NCBI GenBank assembly: GCA_010909725.1
Contig: JAACMV010000010.1
Coordinates: 1,031,501-1,095,500 of the forward strand
DNA from: Picochlorum sp. 'celeri'
Lineage: Eukaryota > Chlorophyta > Trebouxiophyceae
Direction of reading: 5' to 3'
DNA: 64,000 nucleotides
Positions 44,217 through 53,054 of the stretch are shown piece after piece. The position numbers were made by a program, and so were the translations under genes. Each line of letters opens with the position of its first letter. Position 1 is the stretch's first letter. The notes under the pieces are model-generated. The model did not search any database. It was not told where the DNA came from and saw only the letters and a program-made list of their open reading frames with translations.

Positions 44217-44963
44217 ATGATGCCCACCACCGTCTCACAGCGACCAAGCGTCGCCCAGACGGGCATCTCTTCCTCCACAACCACACGACATGTCTGTAGA
44301 AATTTGTGTGGCCATGGGAGACCGAATACCACGATTGCCCTTTCTATAGGACACGATAGAGATGGATTGAAATTCAGCGACGGCACATTGGGATCAAAGC
44401 TCGCAAAAGCTTCCATCACAGCAGCGGCCTTTCTGGCCATACAGTTCTCAACCACAGGTGCAGAGGCCTTGGCCAGATGGGATGGCTCATCAGCAGCCAT
44501 CGGATCCTGTCCCCTTGGAGAGGCAGGAGAGGAATGTAGGAGAGGAGAATTGGCCCAGGATGCCATGCTCAACTACTCTCAGGTCAGCGGAAAGGATGCC
44601 AACTCTACAAAGGTGAGTGGCAAAGCCACTGGCGTGCCTGTGTCAGACATGTCAACGTCCGCCTACGCCAAAGACACCAAAGCATTGGCCTCGGCGATCG
44701 AGTCGTATGTATCTCTCGACCCATACGATGAGCAGCGCGTGGAATTGGTTAAAATGCTCAAGAAGGAAGGCCTGGAGTGGGTTTCCAAGTATGCCAGGGG
44801 TGGATCTGCTAGAAAAGTGTCCGCCAGAACGTTCTACATTGCAATTGATGCCATCCAGGGACACGTAGCATCCAATGGGTATGCTCCATTCCCACGATCA
44901 AAAGCCACCAAAGTGTTGGCCGATGTCAACAAGGCCATGGCCTTGCTCGAGTCTGGAAAATAG
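44217..44963 (+). CDS. PSB27: Psb27-like photosystem II assembly protein, thylakoid lumen
   Basis: A 248-residue intronless protein. The carboxy domain (about 145-248) has the Psb27 four-helix pattern: AYAKDTKALASAIESYVSLD, LVKMLKKEGLEWVSKYAR and VLADVNKAMALLESGK. The amino end is bipartite: a Ser/Thr/Arg-rich plastid part, then KASITAAAFLAIQFSTTGAEALA, a thylakoid signal ending in an A-x-A site. A segment of about 60 residues rich in Ser/Gly/Cys between signal and helices is longer than usual. Psb27 binds CP43 on the lumenal side during assembly and repair of photosystem II. It is the left neighbour of the Fanzor locus. Confidence 0.82.
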   Translation: MMPTTVSQRPSVAQTGISSSTTTRHVCRNLCGHGRPNTTIALSIGHDRDGLKFSDGTLGSKLAKASITAAAFLAIQFSTTGAEALARWDGSSAAIGSCPLGEAGEECRRGELAQDAMLNYSQVSGKDANSTKVSGKATGVPVSDMSTSAYAKDTKALASAIESYVSLDPYDEQRVELVKMLKKEGLEWVSKYARGGSARKVSARTFYIAIDAIQGHVASNGYAPFPRSKATKVLADVNKAMALLESGK

Positions 44964-45285
44964 ATGACAGACATGGGTTGGATCCAACCCGAATACTTGC
45001 ATTCATCAGGTATGACTTGAATCGGGACACAGCATGTATGCAACAACGAGGAGGGAAAACGACGGAATTGGGAGTAACTAGTCTGTCCCTGACAAGGGTG
45101 TGACTGAGGCATTAAAGAGAGACTAAAGTCAGATTTGCCCGAAGTATGATTTGAAGATATTCATCATATATAATTATATATAATAATTGATTGTTAAACA
45201 TCATACAACATCAGATGGGCCTGGACTCCGCAGGCAAATATGTCCTCAAGCCGTCAGATTTGGGATTTCGCGCAACCCATCACTC

Positions 45286-45301
45286 TCCCGTCCGGACGGG
45301 A
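45286..45301. repeat. 16-bp perfect palindrome
   Basis: tcccgtccggacggga equals its own reverse complement. It lies 25 bases before the 32-bp palindrome upstream of the Fanzor gene. Confidence 0.85.
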
Positions 45302-45325: not shown

Positions 45326-45357
45326 CCATGCATGGCCATGGCCATGGCCATGCATGG
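45326..45357. repeat. 32-bp perfect palindrome of CATG/GGCC units
   Basis: Built from ccatgcatgg at each end and two ggccat repeats inside; the full 32 bases equal their reverse complement. It lies about 780 bases upstream of the Fanzor frame. Confidence 0.9.
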
Positions 45358-45700
45358 AGTTGATATGCTGTGACAATTCCTGTCAGACTCGATTTTTTTT
45401 TTTTTGTGAGAATTATCTCGTCCCAAACTGACGTTTGTCAACGGCATCTCGCGAAGAAACATAGCTTCGCTGTGGTAGGCTACTACAGTACCGATAGTAT
45501 AGACTCGGACGACGACTGGCGTGGTCGTGCCTTTCCGACCCTTGTTCTCGTCGTCTCGTATTATCAAAGTAGTGGTAATTTCTATAGTAGAGTTTATCTT
45601 GAAATTATAATTCCATAAAAGGACCGCCGGTGCTGCTGCTGCTGGGCGTGCGGTTGGTTGTTGAGTGGAAACACCAGTTGTTGTTGTTGTTAGTTTTTTG

Positions 45701-45738
45701 CACGGGCGTTGACCCAGCAGCTGCGATCAACGCCCGTG
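45701..45738. repeat. Hairpin with 12-bp perfect G+C-rich stem
   Basis: The arm cacgggcgttga (45701-45712) pairs with tcaacgcccgtg (45727-45738) across a 14-base loop that itself contains cagcagctg. It could be an RNA stem-loop or a protein-binding site of the element that carries Fanzor. Confidence 0.85.
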
Positions 45739-45933
45739 GAGGCCGCGCACTGATCAGCCGAGCCTGTTCGGACGGTTACAGAGACAACTATTGCACACAC
45801 AAGGTACGAATCCCATACAGACACGAAGGACCACGTTTGATAGCAGGGGAGTTACGATCAGTTTCCTTGTGTAGGTGACAAAAGGACCGTGGCGCGTGTG
45901 TGAGGAGGAAGAGATAAAGATACGGTAGTGCCA

Positions 45934-46116
45934 ATGGAAAAAGGATTCGTTAATCAAGGTCCTACCGTCGCAACATCGACGCCTGGAGGGGAGGCTCCCC
46001 ACATGGTGTGTGATGACCCAACAGGGTCCAGACCTACAGGAGACCACAGGAAAGAGGCAAAATTCAGGACTGAAAAGTTAGGTCTCTATAGAAAAAACAC
46101 GGGGAAAACAGAGTAA
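45934..46116 (+). other. Probable Fanzor amino-terminal segment in a shifted frame
   Basis: An ATG frame of about 60 residues (starts MEKGFVNQGPTVATSTPGG, ends with the basic KEAKFRTEKLGLYRKN). It overlaps the open upstream part of the Fanzor frame, which reaches back to 46082 without an ATG. A one-base change of frame within the ggggaaaac run (46101-46109) would run the two together. Either a sequence error, an allele-specific break, a small unseen intron or true decay could explain it. Low complexity plus a basic end is a common Fanzor amino-terminal style. Confidence 0.5.
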
Positions 46117-46129
46117 ATACGCGCAAGAA

Positions 46130-49009
46130 GTGAGGAAGGTGATAAAACCTGGATCTCTGGGCGGGTATCAAGACCACAACCGAACGAACAAGGGACAGTG
46201 GAAGGGTATTGCTCGCACATCCAGAATCAAAGAGCTTCTGTATGACACGGCCACGATGGTGGGCCACATATCCGTCGAAGCCACCCAAGCTGCTCACTAC
46301 CACGTGTACCGATGCCTCGAGGAAGGTATTGATCTGGGGAAGATGGATTACAACAATTTTTGGAACTACATCTTTGATGCCATCAAAGACCTCAGATATG
46401 GGGACGGCCTCAAACAGGACATCAGGACACCCCTGTACGACTCGCTCCGACAGTATGCAGAAGAGGCTCCACTACCTCAGGCAGGAGAGTCTCTGAGATG
46501 GGACGTTGACGGTCACACGGCCTGGCGTCGGCGTTGCCTCCTCGCTGCGGCGGATGCAAAGGCTCAGAATTTGCACATTATTCTACACCACAATGCGTAT
46601 CACAATCTTTGCAAGATTGTCAAGGTTCGGCTTGCACACACCTTTGGGGCACGATACGCGGATGACTTTCGTTCTTTGGTGTCTGCCGTTGCCGTTGCTG
46701 TGTGGGAGGACGTGGATTTCCGTAATGTGAAGGAAGGGTACGACAGATTGAAGAATCTAACCGAGGAAGAGGTCCAAGACATCCAGGAGACGATCGTCAC
46801 CCCTATTCGGGAGAAATTCCCGGATCAGGAAGGCCGAAAGGAAAATGCCAAGATGATGGAATTCGTGCACTTTGTTGCGGGCGAGGTGATGGAATACAAC
46901 CGCCACCGTTCTGAGCAGTCCGGCCCCGGGAGCCCACCACAGGACATCGAGTTAGTGAATATGTGTGTGGGAGAAAAACTGGCGGTGGCTATCGAGCGAG
47001 ATTTGAGGAAAGGATCGCTCACCAAGAAGGCGTTTGTCCACCACGTGAAGCATGCGCTGGACATATTCCGACAGTGTTCTGGTCCAGACGTGTTCACCAC
47101 CCGCACAGACCAGGGACTCCGGGATGGGGACAACGGACCACGTGTCGTGGACCGAAACGACAGGTATCGGGGGCAAATTTTGTGTCTTCTGTCGGAGAGG
47201 ATTCTGTACCAGAGTCAGAAGGGTGGTGCCGAATTCCTGAGCCAAGACCAAGTGGGTTGGATCGATGGCATCTCGTCTGAACTGCGCCTCCCTTCGTCCT
47301 TGGCCGACTACGACATGACCAAGAATGATTTTGCCGACTATATGGAGAGGGTCATTCTGCCCAAGCTCCGCTCGTCGTTCTTGTTCGTTGCTCCGAGGAG
47401 AAGCAACGATGCAGAGGCCCCATGGGGAAAGCGAATCCAAGTGCCGTCCGTCCTCCCCCTGGCAAAGAAGAGGGCCTGTCATATCAGCATTCCGACTGCG
47501 GCTATCACCGGTCTCGCAGAGGGCCTGGCACAGGAGAGTAGTGACATTGCTAAAGCGATACACGGCCCCCGGGAGACACTGCGCGAGGCACGGCAAAGGG
47601 TGACATCAATCGAGTCGAGAATCGTGGACATGGACAAAGAAAACTGGTTGACCGACGAGCAACAGAAGGTTAAACAGGAACTTGAAGATAATAAGAAAAA
47701 AAGCAAGCTCGAATTTGAGCAGACCCCGACAGGAAAGCGGCACCGGTACAAGAAGTCTGACGAGGAAAAGAAGCTGTGCAAGGAATTGACAGACAGGAAG
47801 ACCGCGATATTGAATGGCAGCCAAGAGTACGTGGATGCTCGAGAAGAAGTGGAAAAGGCTGCGTTGCGGTATCAAGAGTGCTGTTGGACGGCCCTGTTCA
47901 ATATCAAAGTCAGAAGGTGCCAAAACGGACACCAGTGGCTGTTTGGAGGGCAGCTGTCCACGGACGGTGTCGACGTGTCGATGCAGTATTATCGTCTGAA
48001 GACGGACGACGAAATTCGTGCCGACGAGGAGGAAAAGGAAAGGATAAAGGCCAGGGCGGCGGAGAAGGCGACGGGGTCTTCGACAGGAAAGCCGAGGAAG
48101 CGAAAACGAACGAGTAGGGCGGGGCCAGGCACCCCGCAGTCCTCGAATGTCTCCAGTCGAGGGAACCTGGACAGAGCAAAAGACCTGCTGGCCGCATCGC
48201 CCGACAACGCATGGGTCTTCGATCCAGGGCCCGATGGCCACGTGGGCATCAAGATGGAGCAGGGCAAGATGAGGGAGCTCTGCCAGGAGAACAAGCGACA
48301 CGGGGACTACGACCCGTTCGAGACGATGAGTCTGACCAACCACGAGATGCAATCGCGTGCGGGCATCCTCAAACGAAAGGCGCTGGAACGGGCGTGGTCG
48401 CAGGCCAGGCCAGGCATCGGGGCATGGAAACAGGAGGCACCCACCAGAAAGGTCGGAACAGCAAGGGATATGCTGGCATTCTGCAGAACGACCAATAGCC
48501 ACCTGAACACGGTGTATGGATTTTATTCCCAGAACTGTTTCCGGAGGCAAAGGTTCTCTGTGTACACGAGGACGCAACGAATGCTGGACTCCATGGTTGA
48601 ACGGATCTGCGGGACGAAGGACAGGGAGGCTCAGAGCAAGACCGTGGTTGTGTTTGGGGACGCCTCGATCAACTCGGGGAAACACGGAAAACAGAGGATC
48701 TGCTTTCGGGCCCTCAAGGACCTGCTGCGGCAGAGGTGCTGTTTCATCGAGATTGGCGAGTTCCGAAGTAGCCAATACTGCTGTGCCTGCCATGCCAAAT
48801 TGGAGGACCCCCCCGCGGTGGGGCTTCACAAGCGCTGGAAAGTACGCCGTTGTATGAACAATGGATGTGAGCGTGCTTTCTGGCAACGAGACGTGAATGC
48901 AGCCATCAATCTCGCCAAGTTTTTCCTGTGGGAAATCAACGGCGAGGAGAAACCAACAGTCTTCCAAAGGCCTCGGACACGAGCAGAGGAGGACATCCCC
49001 GACGTGTGA
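46130..49009 (+). CDS. Fanzor, eukaryotic TnpB-like RNA-guided DNA nuclease
   Basis: A frame of 959 codons (numbered from GTG 46130) with no intron. The carboxy end is a TnpB/Fanzor RuvC nuclease. RuvC-I is FDPGPDG with Asp698. VVVFGDASINSGKHG (Asp844) is the RuvC-II strand. EIGEFRSSQYC supplies Glu877, the shifted catalytic Glu described for Fanzors. CCACH (Cys884, 885, 887) with CMNNGC (Cys908, 913) is the zinc finger, and RDVNAAINLAKF gives Asp921 of RuvC-III. All are intact. The amino 450 residues should form REC/WED-like parts; a Lys-rich, probably coiled segment follows (about 500-600), then basic GKPRKRKRTSRAG, a possible nuclear signal. The first ATG in frame is 46256, yet conserved-looking sequence precedes it. 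The carboxy half looks richer in G+C than its neighbours. Confidence 0.9.
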   Translation: MRKVIKPGSLGGYQDHNRTNKGQWKGIARTSRIKELLYDTATMVGHISVEATQAAHYHVYRCLEEGIDLGKMDYNNFWNYIFDAIKDLRYGDGLKQDIRTPLYDSLRQYAEEAPLPQAGESLRWDVDGHTAWRRRCLLAAADAKAQNLHIILHHNAYHNLCKIVKVRLAHTFGARYADDFRSLVSAVAVAVWEDVDFRNVKEGYDRLKNLTEEEVQDIQETIVTPIREKFPDQEGRKENAKMMEFVHFVAGEVMEYNRHRSEQSGPGSPPQDIELVNMCVGEKLAVAIERDLRKGSLTKKAFVHHVKHALDIFRQCSGPDVFTTRTDQGLRDGDNGPRVVDRNDRYRGQILCLLSERILYQSQKGGAEFLSQDQVGWIDGISSELRLPSSLADYDMTKNDFADYMERVILPKLRSSFLFVAPRRSNDAEAPWGKRIQVPSVLPLAKKRACHISIPTAAITGLAEGLAQESSDIAKAIHGPRETLREARQRVTSIESRIVDMDKENWLTDEQQKVKQELEDNKKKSKLEFEQTPTGKRHRYKKSDEEKKLCKELTDRKTAILNGSQEYVDAREEVEKAALRYQECCWTALFNIKVRRCQNGHQWLFGGQLSTDGVDVSMQYYRLKTDDEIRADEEEKERIKARAAEKATGSSTGKPRKRKRTSRAGPGTPQSSNVSSRGNLDRAKDLLAASPDNAWVFDPGPDGHVGIKMEQGKMRELCQENKRHGDYDPFETMSLTNHEMQSRAGILKRKALERAWSQARPGIGAWKQEAPTRKVGTARDMLAFCRTTNSHLNTVYGFYSQNCFRRQRFSVYTRTQRMLDSMVERICGTKDREAQSKTVVVFGDASINSGKHGKQRICFRALKDLLRQRCCFIEIGEFRSSQYCCACHAKLEDPPAVGLHKRWKVRRCMNNGCERAFWQRDVNAAINLAKFFLWEINGEEKPTVFQRPRTRAEEDIPDV

Positions 49010-49255
49010 TACAACGGAAAACACTACAGTCACATAGCTACATGCATATGATGTATAATATAAATATTATCATAAGGAAATAAAAAGAAAAGAAAAAGGC
49101 AAGGAAAGACCTAATACGCTGTGTGCGGAGAGAGAAACAGAGGGACAACAACGATACCGAATCGTGTCTTGTTTTATACTCCCACAGAGTCGATCTGGTC
49201 GGTGGATAGAGTCTTTTGTATCTTATTATATTAATGTAGTGATATTGAGAGGAAT
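49010..49255. other. Fanzor 3' flank and alpha-COP 5' region
   Basis: Begins with the Fanzor stop. An AT hairpin (ataatat aa atattat, 49055-49070) is followed by a purine-rich tract with aataaa-like signals (about 49076-49110). In Fanzor and TnpB loci the guide RNA is usually encoded at and just past the 3' end of the nuclease gene, so this is the place to look for it. The alpha-COP start codon at 49256 limits the element's right end. Confidence 0.4.
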
Positions 49256-52200
49256 ATGGTACGTTTGTGCATGTGAGAGCGGGGGCGTTGGCCGTGATGA
49301 GTGATGGAGATCACCGCTCTGTTTGATACAATCTCACGGGGTGATGGTGGCATGGTTGCAGTTGACTAAATTTGAAACAAAGAGTAACCGAGTGAAGGGA
49401 CTCAGTTTCCATCCGAAGAGGCCATGGATATTGGCCTCTCTTCACAGCGGGGTGGTTCAGTTGTGGGACTACAGGATGGGGACGTTGATTGATCGCTTCG
49501 ATGAGCATGAGGGGCCTGTTCGAGGAGTGGATTTTCATCCATCTCAGCCTCTGTTTGTGTCTGGAGGAGATGATTACAAGATCAAGGTGTGGAACTATAA
49601 GCAGAGAAGGTGCTTGTTTACGCTGCTGGGGCATTTGGATTACATTCGCACGGTGCAGTTTCACAGCGAGTCTCCGTGGATTGTGAGTGCATCTGATGAT
49701 CAGACTATTCGTGTTTGGAATTGGCAGTCGAGGACGTGTGCGGCTGTGTTGACGGGGCATAATCACTATGTGATGTGTGCTCAGTTCCACCCAAAGGAGG
49801 ATTTGGTGGTTTCTGCCTCGCTGGATCAGACTGTGCGTGTGTGGGATATTAGCGCGTTGCGGAAGAAGAATGTGACCCCAGGTATGGGTCCGCGCGACGA
49901 GCTGTCGATGAGGGCGGCACAGGCGAATGCAGAATTGTTTGGAAGCGGGGATGCTGTTGTCAAGTATGTGCTGGAGGGACATGACCGTGGTGTGAATTGG
50001 GCGTCTTTCCATCCGAGTCTTCCCCTGATTGTGTCAGGAGCTGATGATCGACAGGTCAAGTTGTGGCGAATGAATGACACAAAGGCGTGGGAGGTTGATA
50101 CACTGCGGGGTCATGTGAATAATGTGTCGAGTGTGCTGTTCCATCCAAAGCAGGATCTCATCATCTCAGATTCTGAGGATAAGTCTCTTCGTGTGTGGGA
50201 TATGTCCAAGAGAGTCGGTGTGCAGACATTCAGACGTGAACATGATCGGTTCTGGATCCTTGCGGCTCATCCTAATATTAATTTGTTGGCTGCCGGGCAT
50301 GATTCTGGAATGGTGGTGTTCAAATTGGAGCGGGAGAGGCCAGCCTTTGCCTCGCATGGCACGACGTTGTTCTACATCAAAGACCGGTACATCAGATCGT
50401 ATGATTTTGCAACTGGAAGAGATGCGCCTTTGACGGCGTTACGCCGCAACCCTGCTGCGCTGTACAACCAAGGTGCTCGGTCAATGTCCTACAATCCAGC
50501 AGAGAACTCTGCCTTGGTGCAATCTGATGCAGAGGGTGGTACCTGGGAGCTGTATCCACTGCCAAAAGATGGTTCGTCTGTCAGAGATACTGGGGATGTC
50601 AAGCGCGGAGATGGATCTTCCACTGTCTTTATTGCTCGCAACAGATTTGCTTCCTTTGACAAGTCAAGCAACACGATTGTCGTGCGTGATCTGAGAGGGG
50701 ACATTACGAAGAAGGTAGCATCTCCATTGCCAGCCACTGAAGGTATCTTTTATGCTGGTACAGGCATGCTGTTGCTGCGCTCGGAGGAAAAGGTGGCCTT
50801 GTTTGATGTGCAGCAGCGCAATGTTGCTGCCGACATTTCTGCTCCAATGGTCAAGTATGTGGTCTGGAGCGGGGACATGGAACGGGTTGCTTTGCTCTCA
50901 AAGCACTCAATCATCATCGCTGATCGAAAGCTCCAGAATACAGTCACCATTCATGAGACGATCCGAATCAAGAGTGCAGCATGGGATGATGCAGGTGTGC
51001 TTGTCTACACCACGTTGAACCACATCAAGTACTGTCTGCCATCTGGAGACAGCGGAGTGGTAAGAACTCTCGAATCGCCTGTATACCTTACAAAAGTGCA
51101 TAATGATATGGTATATTGCTTGGATAGAGAGGCCAAGCCGCGTGTGGTGCAGATTAACAGTGCAGAATACAAGTTCAAACTTGCCCTGTCAGAGAAGAAA
51201 TATGATGTTGTTCTGGGAATGATTCGAGCTGGAAAGCTGTGTGGGGAAGCAATCATTGCCTTTTTGCAGGAAAAGGGTTATCCCGAAGTGGCATTGCACT
51301 TTGTGAAGGACGAAAGGATGCGCTTCAATTTGGCCATTGAGTGTGGAAATATTGAAGTGGCTCTCGAAAGTGCCCAGGCCCTCGACACCAGGGTAATGTG
51401 GCAGCGCCTTGGTACAGAAGCTCTTCGCCAAGGAAATTTCAAGATTGTGGAGTATGCGTATCAGAAAACGAAGGATTATGAACGGCTCTCATTCCTGTAT
51501 GCCATCACGGGAGACACTGACAAGCTTGCCAAGATGGGCAAGATTGCCGAAGTCCGTGGAGACATTGCTTCGGCATTCCACAATGCACTTTACATTGGAG
51601 ATGCAAAGGAACGTGTCCGCATCTTGAGGGAAGGTGGCCAGCCATCATTGGCATATTTGACAGCCTGCACCAATGGTCTTGCAGAGGAGGTGGCAGAGTT
51701 GGAGGCTGAGATTGGAGAGGAGAATTTGCCATCCCTCCCAAATCCTGCAAACGTTAAGCAACTGAGAATTCCAGTTCCAATCACGAAGGAGGCGAACTGG
51801 CCTCTTCTCACAGTGTCAAAGGGATTCTTTGAGAGTCTTGCGACAAAGGATGCAGAGAAAGCCAAAGGTGTTGCACAAGCAGCAGCTGCTGTTGCAGATG
51901 AGGTTGACCTTTCGGCTGTGGCTGATGCATGGGGTGACGAAGACGACGTGCTGGCCATTGGAGACGGTGTCGAGGAAGAAGGAGAAGGTGACATGGGCTT
52001 GGGCGAGGAAGGATCTGATGGGTGGGAGATGGAAGATCTTGATCTGCCACCTGAGGCTCTGGCAGCTGCAGATGATGTAGGTCTTGATGGAACTGGGGAA
52101 GAGTTTGTGTCGCCAAATCCAGGGCCATCCATGGCAAACCAGTGGTCTACCAATTGCCATCTTCCAGCTGAACAGGTTGCGGCAGGAGCATTTGACACTG

Positions 52201-53054
52201 CCATGCGCTTGTTGCAGCGCCAGGCCGGTATTTCTCGCTTCGAGCCAATGAAAAAGCACTTCCTCGATGTGTTCAGATGCAGTCATGGGTGCCAGCCAGG
52301 TTTATCTGGGCTGCCATCTATGACGATTCCATTGAATAGAGGATGGGATCCAGAGGTAGATGCACAAAACTTGTGTGCACCAGCCCTCCCACTGTCCCTC
52401 CCATTGCAGGAAGAGAGATTGGTTAAATCATACCGTTTGGTTACGGAGGGTAAATTCGCCGATGCATTGTCATCATTTGATGAAATCCTGCACTCTATTC
52501 CATTGCTGGTGGTTGATTCCAGGAAGGAAGCAGATGAAGTCAAGGAGCTGCTGTCTATTGCTCGGGACTATAACATTGCATTGAGAGTAGAATTAAAGCG
52601 CCGAGAAGTCAAGAGCGAGCCAACAAGGGCCGCAGAGCTGGCAGCTTACTTCACACACTGCAACCTTCAAAGGGTGCATGCTGCGCTGAGTTTGAGAAGT
52701 GCAATGACGACCTTCTTCAAGCTGAAGAACTACAACACCTGTGCGACCTTCTGCAGACGGCTGTTGGAGTTACAGCCTGATGAAAAGATGGCCACACAGG
52801 CCAGACAAGTGCTGGCAGCATGTGAGAAGAATCCAGTGGATGAGGTTCAGCTGGACTATGATCCAAGAAATCCATTTGACATATGCTCGGTCACATTCTC
52901 TCCAATATACAAAGGCAATGCATTTGTAGAGGATCCATATACCAAAGCCAAGTTCAAGCCAGAATGTGAGGGTCAAGTTTCCCCAGTGGGCAATGTTGCT
53001 GTGATTGGCGATCAATCCTCAGGACTGGTCTTGTGCAAAGCACAGTTGAAGTAA
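49256..53054 (+). CDS. COPA: Coatomer subunit alpha (alpha-COP)
   Basis: Two exons: 49256-49258, which holds only the start codon, and 49362-53054 (1231 residues). The 103-bp intron (gtacgt...ttgcag) follows ATG directly and restores the invariant start MLTKFETKSNRVKGLSFHPK. Six to seven WD repeats (LWDYRMGTL, VWNYKQRRCLFTLLGHLDY, VWNWQSRTCAAVLTGH, VWDISALRKK, LWRMNDTKAW) form the amino propeller. A second beta-rich region and alpha-solenoid follow. An acidic linker (about 870-905) precedes the carboxy domain that ends in a zinc-like region (NPFDICSVTFSPIYKG). Alpha-COP is the scaffold of COPI vesicles and reads KKxx retrieval signals. Length matches animal and plant alpha-COP. Confidence 0.96.

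Follow-up and report, generated by a model that had tools for sequence, protein, structure and literature searches.

The analyzed stretch of DNA (the window) comprises 64,000 nucleotides of contig 10 (C10) of the green alga Picochlorum celeri, whose genome assembly contains 27,412,692 bases in 30 contigs and has been described as phased diploid, with 27.43 Mbp in two sets of 15 scaffolds and a G+C content of 46% (PMC7225527). C10/C16, C11/C19 and C14/C18 are homologous contig pairs. On the plus strand of the window, between a Pbs27-like photosystem II gene (44217–44963) and the coatomer alpha gene (49323–53054), both of which are also on the plus strand, lies an open frame at 46130–49009, which has 959 codons counted from a GTG and 975 codons from stop to stop, starting at 46082. 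The frame is as a sequence-only reading of this DNA had described it. No Rfam match and no tRNA was found within the window. The gene belongs to the Fanzor1 family, whose members are kin to RNA-guided DNA cutters of the CRISPR type, and is carried by a dispersed element, which we term family A. The features of the locus are as follows:

45326–45357, no strand assigned: perfect palindrome of 32 bp at the 5´ border of the window copy of the element; none of 200 shuffles equals the folding of the 56 nt around it
45343–49074, plus strand: approximate extent of the family A element, common to the C11 and C19 copies at ~96% identity, with differing flanks
45934–46116, plus strand: native ATG and N-terminal frame as in the C11, C19 and C16 copies, ending after 60 codons in the window copy
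46092–46097, plus strand: A-run that differs in length by one base from the C16, C11 and C19 copies; a frame shift or an assembly error
46130–49009, plus strand: Fanzor1 open frame (open reading frame listing, profile and fold matches); 46082–49009 from stop to stop
48221–48223, plus strand: codon of D698, the predicted RuvC-I Asp (invariance; the DPG of the family aligns to the DPG of GtFz1)
48758–48760, plus strand: codon of E877, the predicted RuvC-II Glu (column of SpuFz1 E541)
48779–48868, plus strand: C4 zinc finger C884, C887, C908, C913 of the TNB domain (Pfam and invariance)
48890–48892, plus strand: codon of D921, the predicted RuvC-III Asp (column of SpuFz1 D606)
49028–49049, plus strand: noncoding 22-nt motif AGTCACATAGCTACATGCATAT past the stop codon, which both family A and family B conserve; a candidate for the element 3´ end or an omega-RNA scaffold

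As a nuclear start codon, the GTG at 46130 is implausible: the frame of the sister copies continues upstream to an ATG equivalent to 45934. Within the long frame of the window, the first ATG is at 46256. In C11 and C19, the frame has 1034 codons from stop to stop and encodes 1024 amino acids counted from the upstream Met. Several properties that had been read as special are ordinary in this genome: the absence of introns is shared by the neighboring alpha-COP gene, a single frame of 1243 codons, and the large size falls within the 801–1034 codons of the sister frames. The C-terminal half is indeed slightly richer in G+C (55.8% versus 54.2%), but it is the whole frame that is the outlier, with a GC3 of 0.658 versus 0.425–0.559 in 15 other long open frames of the window. 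Directly upstream of the element, short repeats at 44956–45294 recur at many other chromosomal sites.

The assignment to Fanzor1 relies on residues, profiles and fold. Every residue named beforehand is present: D698 (VFDPGP), E877 (GEFRSSQYC), C884, C887, C908, C913 and D921 (WQRDVNAAINL). D698, G700, G843, E877, S881, C884, C887, C908, C913 and D921 are invariant in seven proteins from five Fanzor subfamilies of the genome, three of the seven being family A copies; judged from these sequences, such invariance across five subfamilies is far beyond chance. By alignment, the predicted catalytic D, E and D occupy the positions of the catalytic residues of the solved Fanzor1s, the SpuFz1 residue numbers (E541 and D606) being those of the published text. 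The C-terminal motif described for Fanzor1, D-X(125,275)-[TS][TS]-XX-C4-X(5,50)-RD (PMC3627910), is found in the window protein at residues 698, 880–881, 884–913 and 920–921, with 181 residues between D698 and S880. E877 had been regarded as displaced, but Fanzor, TnpB and Cas12a have this Glu in the loop that follows the fifth strand and precedes the zinc domain (PMC11423790), and E877 lies there.

The window protein alone matches the Pfam family Cas12f1-like_TNB with an E-value of 7.7e-5 and 23.2 bits, below the cut-off of 26.3, and the same domain is found in 34 of the 36 members of alignment A6. The A6 profile matches PpFz1 (1.6e-15), SpuFz1 (2.1e-15) and GtFz1 (7.3e-14), and hhalign connects the proteins of families A and B (alignment A7) with the relatives of a further family, C (alignment A9), at 99.8% and an E-value of 1.2e-28. 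On their own, the A/B proteins (A7) have no Fanzor among their sequence matches in the PDB, and a single-sequence search places GtFz1 at an E-value of 7.2; the link to Fanzor thus runs via intermediate families and the fold. The proposed profile search therefore gives a significant match to Fanzor1s through the intermediates (A6 profile; A7 versus A9), but not with the window protein alone. The proposed structural comparison is positive as well: with an AF2 model of pLDDT 72.7 and pTM 0.61, all seven PDB matches at E ≤ 0.001 are Fanzor1. By profile, hhalign, fold and invariant residues, the suggestion of a Fanzor in an algal nuclear genome is confirmed, and its class is Fanzor1. The window gene is a real, divergent Fanzor1, and its genome contains an unexpected wealth of Fanzor subfamilies.

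Copies of family A occupy two differently flanked loci, C10/C16 and C11/C19; family B (58% identity) is found at C14, and truncated pieces of the 3´ side elsewhere (C3/C23, C4, C27:56k, C14:1153k/C18:1134k, C15:38k/C27:47k, C18:10k and C18:5k/C14:5k). The mobile-element context that had been surmised is therefore borne out as dispersed, multi-copy DNA. None of the seven fragment loci at ≥ 60% identity extends upstream of residue 590, and the 5´ noncoding part of family A is found at the four full copies only. The ends of the element are not sharp at base level. Terminal inverted repeats of family A are within chance (as good in 204 of 1000 shuffles for the window copy and 750 of 1000 for the C11 copy), those of family B are not above shuffles, no target-site duplication is seen at the family A copies, and no transposase lies inside the element. 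Family A thus lacks the terminal inverted repeats with TA target duplication that characterize Tc1/mariner-type elements. No clean empty site was found. The C18 allele of the family B locus was considered as an empty site and rejected, since what remains there is a decayed copy that has kept the same 3´ end: the C14 locus (L005, 382–388k) carries an intact family B, whereas the C18 homologue (L040, 385–388k) keeps only a diverged 5´ part (70%) and 3´ remains that are 95% identical.

Two further observations concern the surroundings and pieces of these elements. The C11 and C19 copies have the 3´ flank in common, and their 5´ flanks differ by an apparent local inversion of ~1.7 kb, the inversion alleles (C19:29–31k, L041; C11:1146–1148k, L043) adjoining the 5´ edge of the Fanzor element. 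The truncated family A pieces at C4:78.5k (L008) and C27:56k (L009/L035) have different flanks but start at the same base (window 48428) and reach the 3´ end or almost do so, as would be expected if a short derivative moved independently.

The intact state of this particular copy is in doubt. The frame that opens at the ATG at 45934 stops after 60 codons because the A-run at 46092–46097 is one base longer than in the C16, C11 and C19 copies. In the C16 allele, the N-terminus is preserved, but a C-run near codon 895 shifts the frame before C908, C913 and D921. Neither allele, as assembled, codes for the whole protein in one frame. Compared with its allele and the two intact copies, the window copy has a shift near the N-terminus, and the allele has its own shift elsewhere, so the statement that the protein could be active is unsupported in that form. 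Between loci, the coding sequence appears constrained. For the window and C19 copies, 40.5 changes are nonsynonymous and 33.5 are synonymous (dN/dS 0.34; p = 6e-6 in a Fisher test with the counts rounded), and dN/dS decreases to 0.136 (p = 0.001) over residues 691–959. This substitution pattern between loci indicates that the family as a whole is kept functional. The C11 and C19 alleles differ by 11.5 nonsynonymous and 8.5 synonymous changes (dN/dS 0.39), a constraint short of significance (p = 0.10). The window copy and its C16 allele differ by six nonsynonymous changes and one synonymous change when the shifted codons 894–899 are excluded, which is too few to distinguish neutral from constrained evolution, though compatible with relaxed constraint.

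Alternatively, the window copy may be intact in the living alga, with both shifts being homopolymer errors of long reads and both alleles being working Fanzor genes. Both shifts are single-base length changes in homopolymers (an A-run and a C-run), and polishing of the assembly, which used only long reads, reached better than Q40 (PMC7225527); with ~0.6 errors expected at Q40 over two frames of 3.1 kb, a pair of errors would not be exceptional, and assembly error stays a serious rival. However, the C11 and C19 copies have similar runs and their frames stay continuous across them, and the allelic changes, few as they are, show no constraint. Although such errors are conceivable, we lean against them; it is more likely that the window copy and its allele, each shifted at a different place as assembled, are decaying than that they are mis-assembled, and the window copy may be inactive.

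Downstream of the stop codon, families A and B have 21 of 22 bases in common, AGTCACATWGCTACATGCATAT, with a score of 39 versus a best score of 37 in 5000 single-base shuffles. Synonymous sites between A and B are saturated, yet this motif is common to both; their 5´ noncoding parts have nothing in common (264 of 500 shuffles are as good). The pattern AGTCACATWGCTAYATGCATAT, with ≤ 3 mismatches, occurs at 15 sites in the genome versus 0 for a reversed control. Nine of the 15 are at copies or pieces of Fanzor A or B, and two (alleles on C8/C17) lie behind an old Fanzor relic. Two with three mismatches (alleles on C11/C19) have no Fanzor remains in the 3 kb compared. The remaining two, alleles at C2:111288 (L074) and C22:98272 (L083), are solitary, 23 nt past the stop codon of a gene for an SNM1/DRMBL-type DNA repair nuclease, and may be a ghost-like remnant or a solo end. 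Folding of the 3´ RNA is weak, with z values of −0.65 and −1.98 for the window, −1.36 for family C and −0.11 for family B. In SpuFz1, the omega-RNA scaffold lies between the stop codon and the element end, and the guide derives from beyond it (PMC10432273); by analogy, we infer that family A would have the same layout.

Family C provides a contrast to family A, which is less well bounded and whose loci are further apart (96% identity). The family C element has 2571 bp, one frame of 801 codons and imperfect inverted repeats of 26 columns including the outer TA (0 of 1000 shuffles are as good). It is present at C19:1186516–1189086 and 18 other places (L016–L020, L047–L050, L053 and L059–L073); these 19 copies match a 150-residue query at ≥ 99%, and 17 of them are within 100 kb of a contig end. 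The four copies compared over the whole element are 99.38–99.96% identical, and four copies have one flank in common. The left end is present in 16 of the 19 copies examined, and all 16, which represent eight distinct flanks, have ATA outside; this trinucleotide is a candidate TAM. For the C27 copy, an empty site was sought, and three paralogous subtelomeric sites match the left flank only. Family C looks like the Spu-1 type and looks to have spread recently, in part by subtelomeric duplication. Two additional subfamilies, D and E, lie within 14 kb of each other near a contig end (C20:34628–37060, L054; C20:45147–48221, L052) and have counterparts on C5.

Fanzor1 was already reported in Chlorophyta in 2013 (Bao and Jurka, PMC3627910). 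Like family A, CRe-1, -2 and -3 of Chlamydomonas reinhardtii are green-alga mobile elements with a Fanzor1, and their truncated copies keep the 3´ ends; by description, however, the CRe genes have 5–10 exons and their ends are in common with a known Helitron (PMC3627910), whereas family A has one exon and its carrier is only hypothetical. SpuFz1 of Spizellomyces punctatus (PDB 8gkh and 9ceu) shares 14–15% identity, and the Spu-1 elements have inverted repeats (PMC10432273), whereas family A has none above chance. In GtFz1 of Guillardia theta (PDB 9cer), the third catalytic residue is Asn (PMC11423790), whereas family A keeps Asp921. A Fanzor repeat of Auxenochlorella, compared here by its description, is an uncharacterised green-alga Fanzor element and the most abundant repeat there (PMC12633428). 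The protein M9434_000408 of Picochlorum sp. BPE23 (P0001) is 52% identical over 75% of the query; its record of 759 amino acids breaks off a short way past the first RuvC Asp, its N-terminal sequence almost equals the family B one, and it is likely a truncated gene or gene model. P0001 was the only match among 7997 scored candidates in a protein search with alignment A11; the absence of others means little, as only these candidates were scored and P0035, 30% identical over almost the whole length, exists and was not returned. Searches of the open literature for algal Fanzors and Picochlorum transposable elements gave no title concerning Picochlorum Fanzors.

How family A came to be dispersed can be explained in several ways. 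It may be a non-autonomous Helitron2-type element with a Fanzor1, similar to CRe-1, -2 and -3, that is moved by a resident Helitron. Consistent with this, terminal inverted repeats are not above chance, and the truncated copies retain the 3´ side, an overabundance also described for CRe-1, -2 and -3 (PMC3627910). But detection is biased to the conserved C-terminal half, and the C3/C23 and C4 pieces are short of the full 3´ end. The 5´ palindrome of the window copy is unmatched in 200 shuffles, whereas that of the C11 copy (32 of 200), the 3´ hairpins (25 to 142 of 200) and an ATGCATG(G/T)AG repeat near both ends are within chance. Helitron_like_N occurs at eight places (four loci with two alleles each), while DDE_3 and, in a six-frame search without introns, the serine resolvase PF00239 have 0 matches in the genome. 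No serine recombinase partner lies in the element, in contrast to the IS607-type Fanzor2. However, no end sequence is common to family A and the resident Helitrons at the two of four loci compared, and we consider a Helitron carrier somewhat improbable. The Helitron_like_N frames at C10:643724–648745 (L092) and C10:1185793 onward (L093), one of which has 1674 codons without stops, are possible mobilisers of other elements.

Domestication as a host gene would account for the purifying selection between loci and for the related protein P0001 in Picochlorum sp. BPE23, but the copies at several places with different flanks, the truncated pieces, the frame shifts at the window locus and the decayed C18 allele of family B make it extremely unlikely. 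A recent transfer from a virus, which had also been suggested, is hardly more convincing. The atypical GC3 is compatible with it, but the GC3 of the sister family B is ordinary (0.446), and the sole close relative found is a Picochlorum protein. Viral proteins, mostly of giant viruses, account for 20 fold matches at E ≤ 0.001, which show only that viruses carry Fanzors too. Pattern scans of IMG/VR, of limited reach, with the window protein or alignment A11 returned no related contig; a scan with the family C alignment A9 returned three weak loci of 40–45% over 53–62 residues. We regard a viral source as very unlikely.

The reading that we favor, and consider probable, is that family A is a low-copy mobile family with a Fanzor1 as its only gene, RNA-guided by analogy and functional as a family, in which the window copy and its allele are likely decaying. 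The window would thus be one locus of this family, whose sole gene encodes a large, divergent Fanzor1. By analogy with the solved Fanzor1s, the 3´ end of the element would give rise to a short omega-RNA that binds to the intact protein, the guide would be the variable sequence just past the conserved 3´ motif, and matching DNA would be cut by the RuvC site formed by D698, E877 and D921. Such cutting would help the element to be copied again into the homologous site that lacks it, a selfish function in persistence. A more specific version, which we offer tentatively and think unlikely in full, is that A and B form a distinct lineage of long (~1000 amino acids) Fanzor1s, whose omega-RNA would end in AGTCACATWGCTACATGCATAT directly after the stop codon and take its guide from the variable flank beyond, and whose carrier would be a transposase-less Helitron2-like element.

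The window gene itself is modest news, a divergent Fanzor1 that may be dead in this copy. Five Fanzor subfamilies reside in one haploid algal genome of 13.7 Mb, and one of them, with precise ends, looks recently amplified. The role of Fanzor for its host elements is discussed as an open question (PMC10432273). P. celeri has a small, phased genome, in which, as assembled, intact and broken copies of the same Fanzor stand side by side and the young family C is present as well; a review mentions editing of this alga with Cas9 RNPs (PMC10820777). The coexistence of intact copies, broken copies and a sharp-ended young family would allow guide use, homing and copy-number effects to be tested directly, and the alga would lend itself naturally to finding out how Fanzors serve their transposons.
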